NCBI GenBank assembly: GCA_017308495.1
Contig: JAFKES010000072.1
Span: 1 to 53,536 of the forward strand
DNA: 53,536 bases
Source of the DNA: Afipia sp.
GTDB taxonomy: Bacteria; Pseudomonadota; Alphaproteobacteria; Rhizobiales; Xanthobacteraceae
Direction of reading: 5' to 3'
In this document: positions 12,200 to 18,577 of the stretch, piece after piece
Position numbering within the stretch: the first letter of the stretch is position 1
How the letters are laid out: each line of letters starts with the position of its first letter
Made by a program: the position numbers and the translations under genes
Notes under the pieces: model-generated
The model's input: only the letters and a program-made list of their open reading frames with translations
Databases searched by the model: none
Told to the model about the DNA's origin: nothing

Positions 12200-15100
12200 T
12201 CACACCGTCTGCACATCCAACACCCCAGATACCGCCTTGAGCGCGCCGGCGATCTGTGGCGACACCGGGAAGCGGCCGGGCAGCCTGATCTCCACCGTGG
12301 TCTGCATATCGAGGATCATTTCCAGCACGATCTCCCCGGACGCGGCGGCGCTCGGCGGTGGCGACGCCAGCCGGCGCTGGATTGACTCGATCGGCTTGTC
12401 GTCACGCACAGTGATCCTGAGGCTGGAGGTGGTCTTGGCGGCGGCAGCGTCGAGCGGCTCGGCATGGAGGATGCGCGCGCGCACGTCCTCGCCCTGAAGC
12501 TCCGCGCCAAGTTGCAGCAGCACCGCGGAACCGGGTTCCAGCACGTCGCGATATTGCGCGAGGCCTTCGGAAAACAGCACCGCCTCGAAATGGCCGGTGG
12601 GGTCCGACAGGCCGATGATGCCCATCTTGTTGCCGGTCTTGGTGCGGCGTTCCATGCGCGACACGATGGTGGCGGCGACCCGCCCCGCCGTCGCCCCGGT
12701 CTTCACCGCGCGGGAGAACTCGCTCCACGACTGCACGCGCAGCCGCTTCAATGCGGTGGCGTAATCGTCGAGCGGATGGCCCGACAGGAAGAAGCCGATG
12801 GCGTCGTATTCGTGGCGCAGCCGCTCGGCCGGCAGCCATGGCTCGACGTTGGGCAGCACGATGCTCGGCGCGTCCGCCATGCCGCCGAACATGTCGTTCT
12901 GGCCACTGGCCGCCGCCTCGTGGCTGCGCTGGCAGGCGGCGAGAATGGCGTCGGCGCCGGCGAACACACGGGCGCGGTTGGCATCGATGGTGTCGAACGC
13001 GCCCGCCGCCGCGAGGCTTTCCAGCACGCGCTTGTTGATCGCGCGCGGCGACACCCGCGCGGCGAAATCCGCCAGCGACGTGAACGCCTTGTCGCCGCGG
13101 GCTTCGACGATCATCTCGACCGCCTGCGCGCCGACGCCCTTCAGCGCCGCGAGTGCGTAGAAGATGGTGTTGTCGCCGACCTCGAAGGTCGCGCCGGAGC
13201 GGTTGATCGACGGCGGTTCGACCCGGATGCCGAGCTTCTGCGCGTCGGCGCGGAATTCCGACAGCTTGTCGGTGTTGTTCATGTCGAGCGTCATCGACGC
13301 CGCCAGAAACTCCACCGGATGATGCGCCTTCATGTAGGCGGTCTGGTACGACACCAGCGCGTAGGCGGCGGCGTGGCTCTTGTTGAATCCGTAGTCGGCG
13401 AACTTGGCGAGCAGTTCGAAGATGGTCTCCGCCTGCCCCTTCGCGACATCGTTCTTCATCGCGCCCTTGACGAAGATCTCGCGCTGCTTGTCCATCTCGG
13501 CGCGGATCTTCTTGCCCATGGCGCGGCGCAGCAGGTCGGCGTCGCCGAGCGAATAGCCGGCCATCACCTGCGCGATCTGCATCACCTGTTCCTGGTAGAT
13601 GATGACGCCGAAGGTCTCCTTGAGGATCGGCTCCAGCATCGGATGCATATATTCCGGCTCTTCGTCGCCGTGCTTGCGGGCGCAATAGGTCGGAATGTTC
13701 GCCATCGGGCCGGGACGATAGAGCGCGACCAGCGCGATCAGGTCCTCGAGGCGGTCCGGGCGCATGTCCACCAGCGCCCGGCGCATGCCCTGGCTTTCAA
13801 CCTGGAACACGCCGACCACCTCGCCGCGCGACAGCATGTCGTAACTGGTGCGATCCTCCAGCGGCAGTGTGGCGAGATCGATCTCGATGCCGCGCTGCTT
13901 CAGCAGTTTCACCGCGACGTCGAGCACCGTCAGCGTCTTGAGGCCGAGGAAGTCGAACTTCACGAGGCCCGCGGGCTCCACCCATTTCATGTTGAACTGG
14001 GTGACCGGCATGTCCGATTTCGGATCGCGGTACATCGGCACGAGTTCGGACAGCGGCCGGTCGCCGATCACGATGCCGGCGGCGTGGGTCGAGGCGTGGC
14101 GCGTCAGGCCTTCGAGGCGCTGGGCGATGTCGAAGGCGCGGGCAATCACCGGGTCTTCGTCGCGGAACGCCTGCAATTTGGGCTCGCTCTCGATGGCTTT
14201 GGCCAGCGTCACCGGCGCGGCCGGATTCTGCGGCACGAGCTTGGTGAGGCGGTCCACCTGCCCATAAGGCATCTGCAGCACGCGGCCGACGTCGCGCAGC
14301 ACGCCGCGCGCCTGCAACGTTCCGAAGGTGATGATCTGGCCGACCTGATCGCGGCCGTAGCGTTCCTGCACGTAACGGATCACCTCGCCGCGCCGGTCCT
14401 GGCAGAAATCGATGTCGAAGTCCGGCATCGACACGCGCTCGGGATTGAGGAAGCGCTCGAACAGCAGGCCGAAACGCAGCGGATCGAGGTCGGTGATGGT
14501 GAGCGCGTAGGCGACCAGCGAACCCGCCCCGGAGCCGCGGCCCGGGCCCACCGGAATATCGTTCGCCTTGGCCCACTTGATGAAGTCGGACACGATCAGG
14601 AAGTAGCCCGGATATTTCATCCGGATGATGACGTCGATCTCGAACGCCAGCCGGGCGCGGTAATCCTCCTCCGACATACCCTGCGCGAGGCCATGGGTGG
14701 CGAGCCGCCGGGCCAGCCCCTCCTCTGCCTGCCGGCGCAGTTCCTCCGACTCCTCGCTCTCGGCATCGGCCGCGGCGGCGCTGGCGCCCACGGTGAAGCG
14801 CGGCAGGATCGGCTTGCGGGTGCGCGGGCGGAAGGCGCAGCGCCGGGCAATCTCCACCGTCGAGGCCAGCGCCTCCGGCAGGTCGGCGAACAGCACCGCC
14901 ATTTCGGCGCGGCTCTTGAACCGGTGATCGGGGGTCAGTTGCTCGCGGTCGGTGTCCGACACCAGCCGGCCGCCGGCGATGCACAACAGCGCATCGTGGG
15001 ATTCGTAATCGTCGGCGGTGGCGAAATAAGGCTCGTTGGTCGCCACCAGCGGCAGGCCGCGGCCATAGGCCATGTCGATCAGCACCGGCTCGCAGCGCCG

Positions 15101-15682
15101 TTCGCTGTCGAGGCCGTGGCGCTGCAGTTCGATGTAGAGGCGGTCGCCGAACAGCCGCACCAGCGCGTCGCAGCGTCCGTCCGCCAGCGCCGGAAGATCG
15201 GCGCTGATGGCCTGCGAGATGGGCCCCTCGGGCCCGCCGGTCAGAGCGATAAGGCCATCCGTTTCGCCGTCGAGCCATTCGATCTTGATGTGCGGGGCCT
15301 GATGCACCGGCGTGTCCTGAAACGCGCGGGAGTTTAGCTTCATCAGGCTGCGATAACCGGCCTCGTTGGTGGCGAGCAGGACGATCCGCGCCGGGGCGAG
15401 CGCGTGGCGCGCATTCGCGTCCTGATCCCCGAAATCCACCGCCACCGCGCAGCCGGTGATGGGCTGGATGCCATAGCCCGCCAGCTTCTCGGAAAACTCC
15501 AGCGCGCCGAACATGTTGTCATTGTCGGTCAGCGCCAGCGCGGGCTGGTGGTCGGCCTTGGCAAGATCGAGCAGCTTGCCGATCGTGATCGACCCGCGCA
15601 GCAGCGAATAGGCCGAATGGACGTGCAGATGGACAAACCCCGGCTCCGGGACGCCCGGCTTCGGCATAGTGGTTCTCGACAT
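12200..15682 (-). CDS. dnaE: DNA polymerase III subunit alpha
   Basis: This is the replicative polymerase catalytic subunit, about 1160 residues. It has an N-terminal PHP domain starting FVHLHVHSAYSLLRGS. The C-family polymerase core includes GPGRGSGAGSLVAYAL and the catalytic aspartates in MPDFDIDFCQDRRGE (around residue 420). The helix-hairpin-helix and OB-fold parts are C-terminal. Possible starts are 15697, 15682 and 15667; 15682 has a GGAT-like site upstream and is used here. It is the DnaE1 type rather than the error-prone ImuC, as judged by length, the intact PHP His motif and the absence of imuA/imuB neighbours. Confidence 0.96.
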   Translation of the reverse strand: MSRTTMPKPGVPEPGFVHLHVHSAYSLLRGSITIGKLLDLAKADHQPALALTDNDNMFGALEFSEKLAGYGIQPITGCAVAVDFGDQDANARHALAPARIVLLATNEAGYRSLMKLNSRAFQDTPVHQAPHIKIEWLDGETDGLIALTGGPEGPISQAISADLPALADGRCDALVRLFGDRLYIELQRHGLDSERRCEPVLIDMAYGRGLPLVATNEPYFATADDYESHDALLCIAGGRLVSDTDREQLTPDHRFKSRAEMAVLFADLPEALASTVEIARRCAFRPRTRKPILPRFTVGASAAAADAESEESEELRRQAEEGLARRLATHGLAQGMSEEDYRARLAFEIDVIIRMKYPGYFLIVSDFIKWAKANDIPVGPGRGSGAGSLVAYALTITDLDPLRFGLLFERFLNPERVSMPDFDIDFCQDRRGEVIRYVQERYGRDQVGQIITFGTLQARGVLRDVGRVLQMPYGQVDRLTKLVPQNPAAPVTLAKAIESEPKLQAFRDEDPVIARAFDIAQRLEGLTRHASTHAAGIVIGDRPLSELVPMYRDPKSDMPVTQFNMKWVEPAGLVKFDFLGLKTLTVLDVAVKLLKQRGIEIDLATLPLEDRTSYDMLSRGEVVGVFQVESQGMRRALVDMRPDRLEDLIALVALYRPGPMANIPTYCARKHGDEEPEYMHPMLEPILKETFGVIIYQEQVMQIAQVMAGYSLGDADLLRRAMGKKIRAEMDKQREIFVKGAMKNDVAKGQAETIFELLAKFADYGFNKSHAAAYALVSYQTAYMKAHHPVEFLAASMTLDMNNTDKLSEFRADAQKLGIRVEPPSINRSGATFEVGDNTIFYALAALKGVGAQAVEMIVEARGDKAFTSLADFAARVSPRAINKRVLESLAAAGAFDTIDANRARVFAGADAILAACQRSHEAAASGQNDMFGGMADAPSIVLPNVEPWLPAERLRHEYDAIGFFLSGHPLDDYATALKRLRVQSWSEFSRAVKTGATAGRVAATIVSRMERRTKTGNKMGIIGLSDPTGHFEAVLFSEGLAQYRDVLEPGSAVLLQLGAELQGEDVRARILHAEPLDAAAAKTTSSLRITVRDDKPIESIQRRLASPPPSAAASGEIVLEMILDMQTTVEIRLPGRFPVSPQIAGALKAVSGVLDVQTV

Positions 15683-15961
15683 GGCAGATCCGGGCATCTT
15701 GTCCGCAAGCTGCCGGGCCTGAATGTCAGGTCTGCGGCGGCGGGATCAGGCGACTCACCGGCCGATGGTGCGGCGTCGCGGCCGGGGAGTCCACGTGGAA
15801 CCGGCGACGACGGCCGGATCGCGATCCGCCATCACCGTTTTCCCCATCATCGGTTCGCCGTCACGCTCCCATTGTGGTTTTGCCGTCATGGCTCTGGCTC
15901 GCCGCGCCCGTGGCGTAGCCTTGGATCAGCGCGCCCGGGCTCTGGCTCGCGGCGCCATGGC

Positions 15962-16060
15962 CTAGAGCTGTTGGATCACCTGGGCCCAGACAACCACCAT
16001 TCCGACAAACAGCACCAGCGAGGTCAGCGCAGCCGCTTCTTCCACAAACGTCTTCAGCAT
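15962..16060 (-). CDS. 32-residue single-pass membrane protein under LexA-type control
   Basis: This short ORF encodes MLKTFVEEAAALTSLVLFVG followed by 12 more residues. A short acidic N-terminus precedes one hydrophobic segment (about residues 10-29). A strong ribosome binding site, GGGAGGGA at 16066-16073, sits 5 bases upstream of the ATG. Just upstream lies a sigma70-like promoter covered by two GAAC-N7-GAAC type boxes, the alphaproteobacterial LexA operator. This is the arrangement of a DNA-damage-induced small membrane protein, like the 29-residue Caulobacter division inhibitor SidA. No sequence homology to SidA is claimed; the functional analogy is inference. Confidence 0.75.
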   Translation of the reverse strand: MLKTFVEEAAALTSLVLFVGMVVVWAQVIQQL

Positions 16061-16086
16061 GATCGTCCCTCCCGTTCGCTCAATGA

Positions 16087-16119
16087 GAACGTAATAAGAA
16101 CATTGTTCCTTTTTTGTTC
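16087..16119 (-). promoter_or_regulatory. Double LexA (SOS) operator upstream of the 32-aa membrane protein
   Basis: On the plus strand, GAAC-N7-GAAC occupies 16087-16101 and GTTC-N7-GTTC occupies 16105-16119. The alphaproteobacterial LexA box is GTTC-N7-GTTC, so both are exact matches in opposite orientations, with centres 18 bases apart. They overlap the predicted -10 element and the spacer of the promoter reading leftward. No other gene start faces these boxes closely; the plus-strand DUF3551 gene begins 175 bases to the right. Confidence 0.8.
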
Positions 16120-16129
16120 TCAAAGTCAA
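16102..16129 (-). promoter_or_regulatory. Sigma70-like promoter for the 32-aa ORF
   Basis: Read on the minus strand there is a TTGACT -35 at 16129-16124, a 16-base spacer and an AACAAT -10 at 16107-16102. Transcription would start near 16095 and give a leader of about 35 bases carrying the GGGAGGGA ribosome binding site. Both LexA boxes overlap this region, so LexA binding would block polymerase directly. Confidence 0.6.
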
Positions 16130-16294
16130 GCCAATGGAAGCGCCACGGAACCATATCGTTAACAGGCCGTCTATTCGTCATTCCCCGCTGACGCCGGGCT
16201 CAGGAATGTGAGTTGACGCGCGGCTCGCCAGGCGGTCTGAGTTCCCGCACGAAAATCAAAAGAATCGGCGCAAAGGTGCCGAACGGAGACTTCC

Positions 16295-16570
16295 ATGCGA
16301 AATTTATTGTTGGCACTCGCGGCCGTCGCAACGATGACGGCCATTCAGGGAACCCCTGCCGAGGCCGGCGAAAGGGCATTCTGCATCATCGGCGGCAGCG
16401 CCTCCGCCAACCTGCGGGGCGATTGCAGGTTCGACACTTATGCCCAGTGCCTCGCGACCGCGTCCGGGACCCGCTCGTTCTGCGACCGGAACTATTTCTA
16501 CAATCCGGCCGCCAACGGCCCCTATCCAGGCGTCGCTCCCCGGGCCCGGTACTACCGCGGCTATCGATAA
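16295..16570 (+). CDS. DUF3551 family small secreted protein
   Basis: The 91-residue protein has a signal peptide (MRNLLLALAAVATMTA, cleavage near AEAG). The mature part has four cysteines, in AFCIIGG, GDCRF, AQCLA and SFCDRN, and an Asn/Tyr/Pro-rich end. This is the DUF3551 pattern, which is abundant in Bradyrhizobium and relatives and has no known function. The ATG is preceded by a GGAGA site with good spacing. It stands alone between the LexA-controlled small gene and lolD. Confidence 0.85.
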   Translation: MRNLLLALAAVATMTAIQGTPAEAGERAFCIIGGSASANLRGDCRFDTYAQCLATASGTRSFCDRNYFYNPAANGPYPGVAPRARYYRGYR

Positions 16571-16601: not shown

Positions 16602-17312
16602 TCAGTCGAGTTCAACCACCCGGCCGGCCTGGATGGATACCCGGCGATCCATGCGGGCCGCCAGTTCCATGTTGTGGGTCGCGATCAGCATCGCGACGCG
16701 GGTGGCCTTCACGAGCTGTGTCAGGGCGTGAAAGACATGATTCGCCGTTTGCGGATCGAGATTGCCGGTGGGTTCGTCCGCGAACAGGACACGCGGCGCA
16801 TTGGCCACGGCGCGGGCGATGGCGACGCGCTGCTGCTCGCCGCCGGACAGTTCGGCCGGCCGATGGGTGACCCGCTCGCCGAGGCCGAGATAAGCCAGAA
16901 TCTCGCGTGAGCGCGCCACGGTTTCCTTGCGCGACAGGCCGCGGATCATCTGCGGCAGCATCACGTTCTCAAGCGCGGAAAACTCCGGCAGCAGCCGGTG
17001 CGACTGATAGACGAAGCCGATATCGGTGCGCCGGATCTGGGTGCGCTCGGCGTCCGACAGGCCCGACGTCGCGGTGCCGGCAACATAGACCTCGCCCTCG
17101 TCGGGATGCTCGAGCAGGCCCGCGATGTGCAGGAGAGTAGATTTGCCGGTGCCCGACGGCGCGATCAGCGCTACCGACTGGCCCTCCCACAACGCCAGCG
17201 TGGCGCCGTCGAGAATGGTCAGCGTTGCCTCGCCCTGCCGGTAACGGCGGGAAATCTCGTGGAGATACACCACCGGAACGCTGTTTTCGCCCTGCTCCAT
17301 CGTCACGCTCAT
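16602..17312 (-). CDS. lolD: Lipoprotein-releasing ABC transporter ATP-binding protein LolD
   Basis: LolD powers release of outer-membrane lipoproteins from the inner membrane to the carrier LolA. The 236-residue product has Walker [13 protein letters not shown], the LolD-type loop [17 protein letters not shown], the ABC signature [14 protein letters not shown] and Walker [13 protein letters not shown]. The start at 17312 overlaps the stop of the upstream permease gene as ATGA, so the two are probably translationally coupled. The open frame extends to 17495, but that part overlaps the permease in another frame. Confidence 0.95.
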
Positions 17313-18577
17313 TCGTACCGGAGGGCTTCGATGGGATCGAGGCGCGCGGCGCGCCACGACGGATACAGCGTCGCCAGAAACGACAGCGTCAGCGCCATGA
17401 TCACCACGGCGGCGGTCTCCCCGGCGTCGACCTCGGCCGGCAGCTTCGACAGGAAGTAAAGCTCCGGCGAGAACAGCTCGGTGTTGGTCAGCCACGAGAT
17501 GAACTGGCGGATCGTCTCGATATTGAGACAGACGACGAGACCGAGCAGGAAACCGACCAGAGTGCCGACCACGCCGATGGCCGCGCCGGTGATCAGGAAC
17601 ACCCGCATGATCGAGCCTTGCGTCGCCCCCATGGTGCGCAGGATGGCGATGTCGCTGCCCTTGTCCTTCACCAGCATGATGAGGCCTGAGACGATGTTCA
17701 GCGCCGCCACCAGCACGATCAGGGTCAAGATCAGGAACATGACGTTGCGCTCGACCTGGAGCGCGTTGAAGAAGGTGGAATTGCGCTGTCGCCAGTCGAC
17801 CAGGAAGATCGGTCGCTGCGCAGCCTCGGTGATGGGCTTGCGGAAGCTGTCGATCCGGTCGGGATTGGTGGTGTAGATCTCGATGGCGGTGACGTCATTG
17901 GCGCGGTTGAAATAGGCCTGCGCCTCGGCCAGCGGCATGAAAACGAACGACGAATCGTATTCGGACATGCCGATCTCGAACACCGCCGTCACCTTGTAGG
18001 GCTTGATGCGCGGCGTGGTGCCCATCGGAGTCACCGCCCCGCGCGGCGCCACCAGCGTGATGCTGTCGCCGGCGCGCAGTGACAGCTGGTCGGCGAGGCG
18101 GCGGCCGATGGCCACGCCCTGGCCGTCGTCGAAGCCTTCGAGGGTGCCCTGCTTGATGTTCTTGGCGATGGAAGTGACCTTGTCGAGGTCGGCGGCACGC
18201 ATACCGCGCACCAGCACGCCGGAGGCATTGAACGGCGACGACGCCAGCGCCTGACCATCGATCACCGGGGCGGCAAGGCGGACACCCGCGACGGCGCTGA
18301 TGCGCTCGGCCACTTCCTTCCAGTCGGTCAGCGGCGATTCCAGCGGCTGCACCACGATATGGCCGTTGAGGCCGAGAATCTTGTCGAGCAGCTCCTTGCG
18401 GAAGCCGTTCATCACCGCCATCACGATGATCAGCGTCGCGACCCCGAGCATGATGCCGAGGAACGAGAAGCCGGCGATGACGGAAATGAAACCTTCCTTG
18501 CGCCGTGCCCGCAGGTAACGGGTGGACAGCATCCACTCAAAGGGCGCGAAAGGCGCTGTCCGAACTGGCTCGCTCAT
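17309..18577 (-). CDS. lolC: Lipoprotein-releasing ABC transporter permease (LolC/LolE family)
   Basis: This is the transmembrane component partnering LolD. The 422-residue protein has one N-terminal membrane helix ([21 protein letters not shown]), a large periplasmic domain (about 50-270) and three C-terminal helices. This is the FtsX/MacB topology of LolC and LolE. Only one permease gene is present beside lolD, which fits the homodimeric single-permease (LolF-type) arrangement of many alphaproteobacteria. The ATGA overlap with lolD supports coupled production. Confidence 0.92.

Follow-up and report, generated by a model that had tools for sequence, protein, structure and literature searches.

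The window, which is the whole 53,536-nt stretch of Afipia sp. DNA that was analyzed, carries on its minus strand a 32-codon open reading frame (ORF) that is likely to be a LexA-repressed gene for an SOS cell-division inhibitor of the SidA family (Table 1). Its operators, selection, position, and homology were computed, and the function is proposed on their basis. The Hyphomicrobiales (Bradyrhizobium, Rhodopseudomonas, Afipia, and kin) are not known to have SulA, and the present finding names one short gene as a candidate for the control of their division after DNA damage. The excerpts covered, drawn from the open-access literature with few subscription papers, described no SidA relative from bacteria other than Caulobacter, which is weak evidence of novelty.

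An earlier note, made from the letters of the window, had described the 32-codon ORF, a strong ribosome binding site, and two LexA boxes. The ORF and the boxes were found where it had placed them, with both boxes exact.

Table 1. Features of the short gene and its surroundings (window coordinates)
Feature	Position	Strand	Basis
dnaE, DNA polymerase III alpha, usual downstream neighbor	12200..15697	-	profile match and neighborhood counts
SidA-like peptide ORF, 32 codons plus stop, one hydrophobic segment, MLKTFVEEAAALTSLVLFVGMVVVWAQVIQQL	15962..16060	-	translation, homologues, dN/dS
Ribosome binding site GGGAGG	16068..16073	-	read from sequence
LexA operator 2 (predicted), GTTCTTATTACGTTC on minus strand; starts 18 bp after operator 1, inverted to it	16087..16101	-	exact motif, conserved
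Promoter-like -35 TTGACT / -10 AACAAT	16102..16129	-	1 found vs 0.2 expected
LexA operator 1 (predicted), GAACAAAAAAGGAAC on minus strand; in promoter spacer, running into -10	16105..16119	-	exact motif, conserved
lolD-like ABC ATPase, frequent upstream neighbor	16602..17495	-	profile match and neighborhood counts
lolC/E permease, upstream neighbor	17309..18577	-	profile match

The short ORF is under purifying selection

The GGGAGG element ends 7 nt before the ATG, in keeping with the strong ribosome binding site of the earlier note. The encoded peptide has a hydrophobic stretch at residues 9 to 25, predicted to be a membrane segment, and charged residues near its N terminus (K3, E7, and E8). 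Scans of the ORF found no Pfam or NCBIfam family, and searches of phages and plasmids returned no match to the peptide. Rfam gave no match between positions 15500 and 16700 of the window; any antisense RNA there would be an uncatalogued one. An ORF of 32 codons is easily missed by gene finders.

Comparison with relatives showed the reading frame to be clearly under purifying selection. A set of 115 distinct sequences of 32 codons, from which L095, L097, L100, and those of any other length had been left out, gave 1,822 pairs that differ at 3 to 20 positions. The dN/dS ratio had a median of 0.096 and never reached 1 in the 1,789 pairs for which it could be computed; these pairs are not independent owing to the ancestry that they have in common. 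Of the 30,148 differences in the 1,822 pairs, 20,709 fell on the third and 2,469 on the second codon position. The conservation of codons in relatives, for which the earlier note had called, is thus borne out.

A protein search within the same family matched 111 of 149 genomes, in 37 of 47 genera, at an E value of ≤1. Two of the loci returned, L095 (G140:C1:2803266-2803352) and L097 (G022:C13:5582-5665), are second, weaker matches that have no LexA boxes, while the better matches in both genomes are boxed; they may be paralogues or chance matches. An order-wide profile search at E ≤ 0.1 matched 109 of 397 genomes. Boxed family members in the order are 27 to 38 residues long, and F18 and W25 are invariant in an alignment of 42 sequences. 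The corresponding class-wide search, run at the same threshold, matched 31 of 385 genomes. Of 28 loci from this search, 5 (L253, L258, L259, L262, and L270) are preceded by an exact LexA box, and L258 belongs to the window's own order. At L248, a family-like peptide is encoded upstream of dnaE without an exact box; the remaining class-wide loci look mostly like chance stretches.

Two predicted LexA operators lie over the putative promoter

Both operators are exact matches to GTTCN7GTTC, on opposite strands, and operator 2 lies just downstream of the promoter-like site, over the presumed start site. The window holds five matches to this motif, compared to 1.49 expected; the other three are elsewhere in the window. 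The genome encodes one LexA, and the same motif is found ~140 nt upstream of the DNA-binding domain of this LexA (G000:C47:1935-1949). Across the genome, the LexA motif has 118 matches, compared to 59 for the reversed pattern.

The conservation of both boxes in relatives was another check proposed in the earlier note. GAACN7GAAC followed by GTTCN7GTTC precedes the ORF in 79 of 80 relatives from a named collection (the best 80 of 295, a selection that leans to close kin), and in the remaining one, L179, both boxes are present with mismatches. The nearest of these relatives are Bradyrhizobiaceae and Afipia records, pointing to a probable Afipia-like source in the Nitrobacteraceae. As controls for the boxes, 8,299 other ATGs from these loci were used: none had the double box, and 86 had any single box within 120 nt. 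We considered chance occurrence of the boxes and reject it on this comparison. The family was represented by 70 loci from the protein search: the 30 top-ranking matches returned and 40 lower-ranking ones picked to widen the sample. In the 200 nt upstream of the ORF, 63 of these loci have two exact boxes, 5 have one, and 2 have none.

When each box may have one mismatch, the two boxes are inverted and 18 bp apart in 78 of the 80 named loci and 16 bp apart in the other 2; among 68 family loci (L095 and L097 left out), the 18-bp inverted pair is present in 55, other spacings in 6, and no pair in 7. Apart from the omissions named here and for dN/dS, the locus counts include every locus of their sets. 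Control upstream regions yielded such a pair in 3 of 1,352 cases at the same tolerance. From the weaker order-wide profile matches, 40 more divergent loci were fetched. In 31 of them, an exact box lies no more than 250 nt ahead of the ORF; one of these is L227, where the exact box is 153 nt away and a near match lies closer in. Inspection by eye found near-matching boxes at the expected place in L214, L220 to L222, L227, L232, L233, and L246, and no box there in L230 and L242, which may be false matches. A box pair of any kind was detected in only 5 of these 40 loci; most have one box.

The gene lies between lolCD and dnaE

In the window, the short gene is followed by dnaE and preceded by lolCD (Table 1). 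The LolD profile matches the lolD-like ORF only from residue ~79, and the true start is therefore probably near there. Between the peptide ORF and lolD, on the plus strand (16294-16570), there is an ORF for a 92-residue, secreted-looking, cysteine-containing small protein that has no good Pfam match.

The same neighborhood recurs in relatives. dnaE is present in 29 of the 30 best family loci, 26 of the 40 further family loci (each only 901 bp long), 75 of the 80 named loci, 33 of the 40 divergent order loci, and 49 of 50 Caulobacteraceae loci. lolD or lolC is present in 29 of the 30 best family loci, 5 of the 40 further family loci, 63 of the 80 named loci, and 11 of the 40 divergent order loci. 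Among the named loci, all 75 dnaE genes follow the ORF and share its strand, with a median gap of ~147 nt, and lolD is upstream in all 63. The five named loci from which dnaE is absent (L149, L184, L187, L190, and L197) keep the ORF and both boxes, indicating that the peptide together with its operators makes up an independent unit.

The peptide is probably related to a 29-residue peptide of the Caulobacteraceae

SidA of Caulobacter is a 29-residue, LexA-controlled membrane protein that binds FtsW, according to an excerpt of PMC4211646. At one locus of the class-wide search, L259 (E = 0.0136; genome G902), an ORF of 29 residues lies between lolD and dnaE and is preceded by a LexA box. The three sampled members of the family of G902 were the closest in CtrA to C. 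crescentus CtrA, with 87 to 90% identity to the query sequence. Against the same query, CtrA identity in 10 members of genus g475 of this family was 99% in four, 96% in one, and 89 to 92% in five, and in five members of other genera, including G902, it was 90 to 92%. From these identities, the family is very probably Caulobacteraceae, with part of g475 being Caulobacter.

The 29-residue peptide was found in 96 of 119 Caulobacteraceae genomes at a lenient E value of ≤5 and in 60 of 61 genomes of g475 at E ≤ 1. Among 80 Caulobacteraceae loci (L310 to L359 and L442 to L471), in which some genomes are counted twice, the length is exactly 29 residues in 78, an exact box lies within 120 nt in 50, and direct box pairs 16 to 18 bp apart are present in 75 (one mismatch per box). 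By this count with mismatches, the promoter of the peptide mostly has two boxes, in contrast to the ~97% of Caulobacter SOS promoters that have one box by the authors' count in an excerpt of PMC12700426.

A pattern search for a box, an ATG, and F-x6-W matched 57 of the 119 Caulobacteraceae genomes and was discarded, as its matches were other LexA-boxed genes and chance sites; the 29-residue peptide does not have that tryptophan and is therefore missed by the pattern. Many of these genomes share a recurrent LexA-boxed ORF that reads approximately M-R-E-D-G-K-I-D-Y-V-E-x-P-G (L281, L284, L296, L305, L306, L308, and others), apparently another conserved SOS gene of the Caulobacteraceae.

Alignment of the two groups with hhalign (89 Hyphomicrobiales sequences against 57 Caulobacteraceae sequences) gave an E value of 2.4e-6, a score of 25.8, and a probability of 89%, over 29 columns with 34% identity. 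Likeness among hydrophobic helices inflates such profile scores, a problem that shuffling within hydrophobic and polar classes meets only in part; the highest score was 19.7 in 200 column shuffles and 19.2 in 200 class-preserving shuffles, so that none of the 400 was as good as the real alignment, and the reversed alignment scored 6.4. F18 is invariant in both groups (89/89 and 57/57). E/D8, A11, L12, S14, M21, and A26 predominate in both, and Q27 is the commonest residue at its position in both; the common core reads E-x2-AL-x-S-x3-F-x2-M. The groups differ in their tryptophans: W25, invariant in the 89 Hyphomicrobiales sequences, is mostly V in the Caulobacteraceae, which have their own invariant W one residue before M21 (57/57).

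We take dnaE (CC1926) and sidA (CCNA_02004) to be neighbors in Caulobacter; a statement that CC1926 adjoins CCNA_02004 was not found in excerpts of the open-access literature. The designations are those of published excerpts, which give CCNA_02004 as sidA (PMC10769358) and CC1926 as dnaE copy 1 (PMC1839093). We equate the Caulobacteraceae peptide with the published SidA on grounds of kinship, length, LexA boxes, and position rather than of a named record.

On sequence, position, and operators, the window peptide is a member of the SidA family, its function being proposed from these. It resembles SidA in size (32 and 29 residues), in its one hydrophobic segment, in its predicted LexA control, and in the position beside dnaE seen in the Caulobacteraceae. 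In a comparison made through the Caulobacteraceae peptides rather than the published SidA sequence, it is three residues longer, has W25 instead of the W before M21, and has the second LexA box inverted instead of direct. The earlier note had suggested a SidA type, and the profile match to the 29-residue peptide, the place beside dnaE, and the LexA boxes support it; with evidence from both sequence and position, the link to SidA is no longer one of analogy alone.

Boxed membrane peptides recur upstream of dnaE in scattered families

A survey of the regions upstream of dnaE was carried out blind to the peptide sequence. dnaE was located in 197 of 210 genomes of the class, and 80 upstream regions, approximately one per family, were taken in order from a best-first list, larger genomes being preferred; they were chosen before any region was inspected, and orientation was checked in all 80. 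The criteria were an ORF of 22 to 60 residues that includes a hydrophobic segment and has an exact LexA box no more than 110 nt away. Such an ORF was found in 13 of the 80 regions, one of which (L373) is from the window's own order and two of which (L377 and L441) are weak. The opposite strand gave a match in 2 of 80, both at loci that also have a sense match (L407 and L424), and other tiles gave 1 of 660 and 0 of 110. Of 110 tiles in the window, only the one with the 32-codon ORF matched. Several of the survey peptides have a family-like reading (e.g., L362, L391, and L421), and L401 (genome G685) matches the profile with an E value of 4e-5 without an exact box.

Boxed membrane peptides ahead of dnaE thus recur in scattered families and, by these criteria, are absent from most of the families sampled. 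None was detected in 67 of the 80 regions, nearly all of them from other families, and no match was obtained in 38 of 149 genomes of the window's family (E ≤ 1) or 288 of 397 genomes of its order (E ≤ 0.1); the gene is therefore often lost, moved, or unrecognizable.

Proposed function and alternative explanations

In the undamaged cell, LexA would occupy the two operators over the promoter and keep the gene shut; since the operators cover the promoter, repression should be tight. Upon DNA damage, LexA would be cleaved. A burst of the 32-residue peptide could then come from the promoter, aided by the favorable ribosome site. The peptide would insert as one membrane helix, with its charged N terminus (K3, E7, and E8) probably cytoplasmic. 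Of 60 distinct family peptides, 59 have basic residues within the first nine positions and only 3 have them within the last eight, a bias that predicts a cytoplasmic N terminus under the positive-inside rule. The peptide would block septal wall synthesis, as SidA does via FtsW in Caulobacter, and division would be delayed until LexA recovers. By analogy, the septal wall synthase FtsW is probably the target. LexA binding, induction, topology, target, and phenotype are what we infer in this scheme. FtsW is likewise the site of action of YneA, and AlphaFold models of low confidence put SidA on TM7 of FtsW (excerpts of PMC13396833).

Three other explanations were weighed. The gene could encode an SOS-induced membrane peptide of the TisB or DinQ kind that depolarizes the membrane and makes cells dormant, with no inhibition of the divisome. 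TisB of E. coli is itself under LexA control, and type I toxins have a long folded leader; the leader in the window, as deduced from the promoter-like site, is short (~35 nt) and leaves the ribosome site open. Size does not separate the two, since TisB, part of a type I toxin system, is also a 29-residue membrane peptide (excerpt of PMC11449926). Nevertheless, a TisB-like role is unlikely: the peptide resembles that of the Caulobacteraceae in profile and in gene position, and no Rfam match, and with it no catalogued antisense partner, was found nearby. We regard it as highly improbable that the ORF is a short leader and that the LexA promoter really serves dnaE, adjusting the polymerase supply after damage. 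Such a role would agree with the position of dnaE, which follows the ORF in the same orientation in 75 of the 80 named loci, and with the finding of no terminator-like site in the 264-bp gap in the window, but the amino acid sequence is conserved and the five named loci that are devoid of dnaE retain the ORF with both boxes.

It is also conceivable that an SOS division inhibitor or envelope peptide of independent origin arose at a convenient site and converged on SidA. Single hydrophobic helices converge easily, the operator pair is inverted in one group and direct in the other, and the conserved tryptophan is at different places. Nevertheless, the same gene position in distant families, a profile score above all 400 shuffles, and the similar box spacing (16 to 18 bp) make convergence improbable. 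We favor descent from a common SidA-family gene and lean toward a broader reading, in which SidA would be an ancestral alphaproteobacterial checkpoint peptide that has been beside dnaE since before the Hyphomicrobiales and Caulobacterales split, with its double operator in two orientations. For much of the class, it would then supply the SOS division inhibitor that has been missing, and a length of ~30 codons would explain why it was overlooked.

The proposed inhibitor is distinct from other known systems. SulA has the same role in the SOS response but is an FtsZ inhibitor of another sequence, and the peptide has no PF03846 domain. The claim of the earlier note that this group is not known to have SulA is supported: PF03846 was detected in 0 of 31 genomes, in a search whose control was positive only in E. 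coli. YneA, SosA, ChiZ, and DivS are likewise SOS-induced division inhibitors other than SulA but are different proteins; YneA, for example, has an extracellular LysM domain (excerpt of PMC13396833), whereas the peptide here is only 32 residues long and has no Pfam match. DidA of C. crescentus is also a small, damage-induced membrane inhibitor of division, but it has 71 residues, is SOS independent, is activated by DriD, and binds FtsN (excerpt of PMC4211646). The 146 distinct sequences collected here (89 and 57) make up a natural alignment that shows which residues a minimal inhibitor would retain, namely F18 in every sequence and E/D8, A11, L12, S14, and M21 in most.
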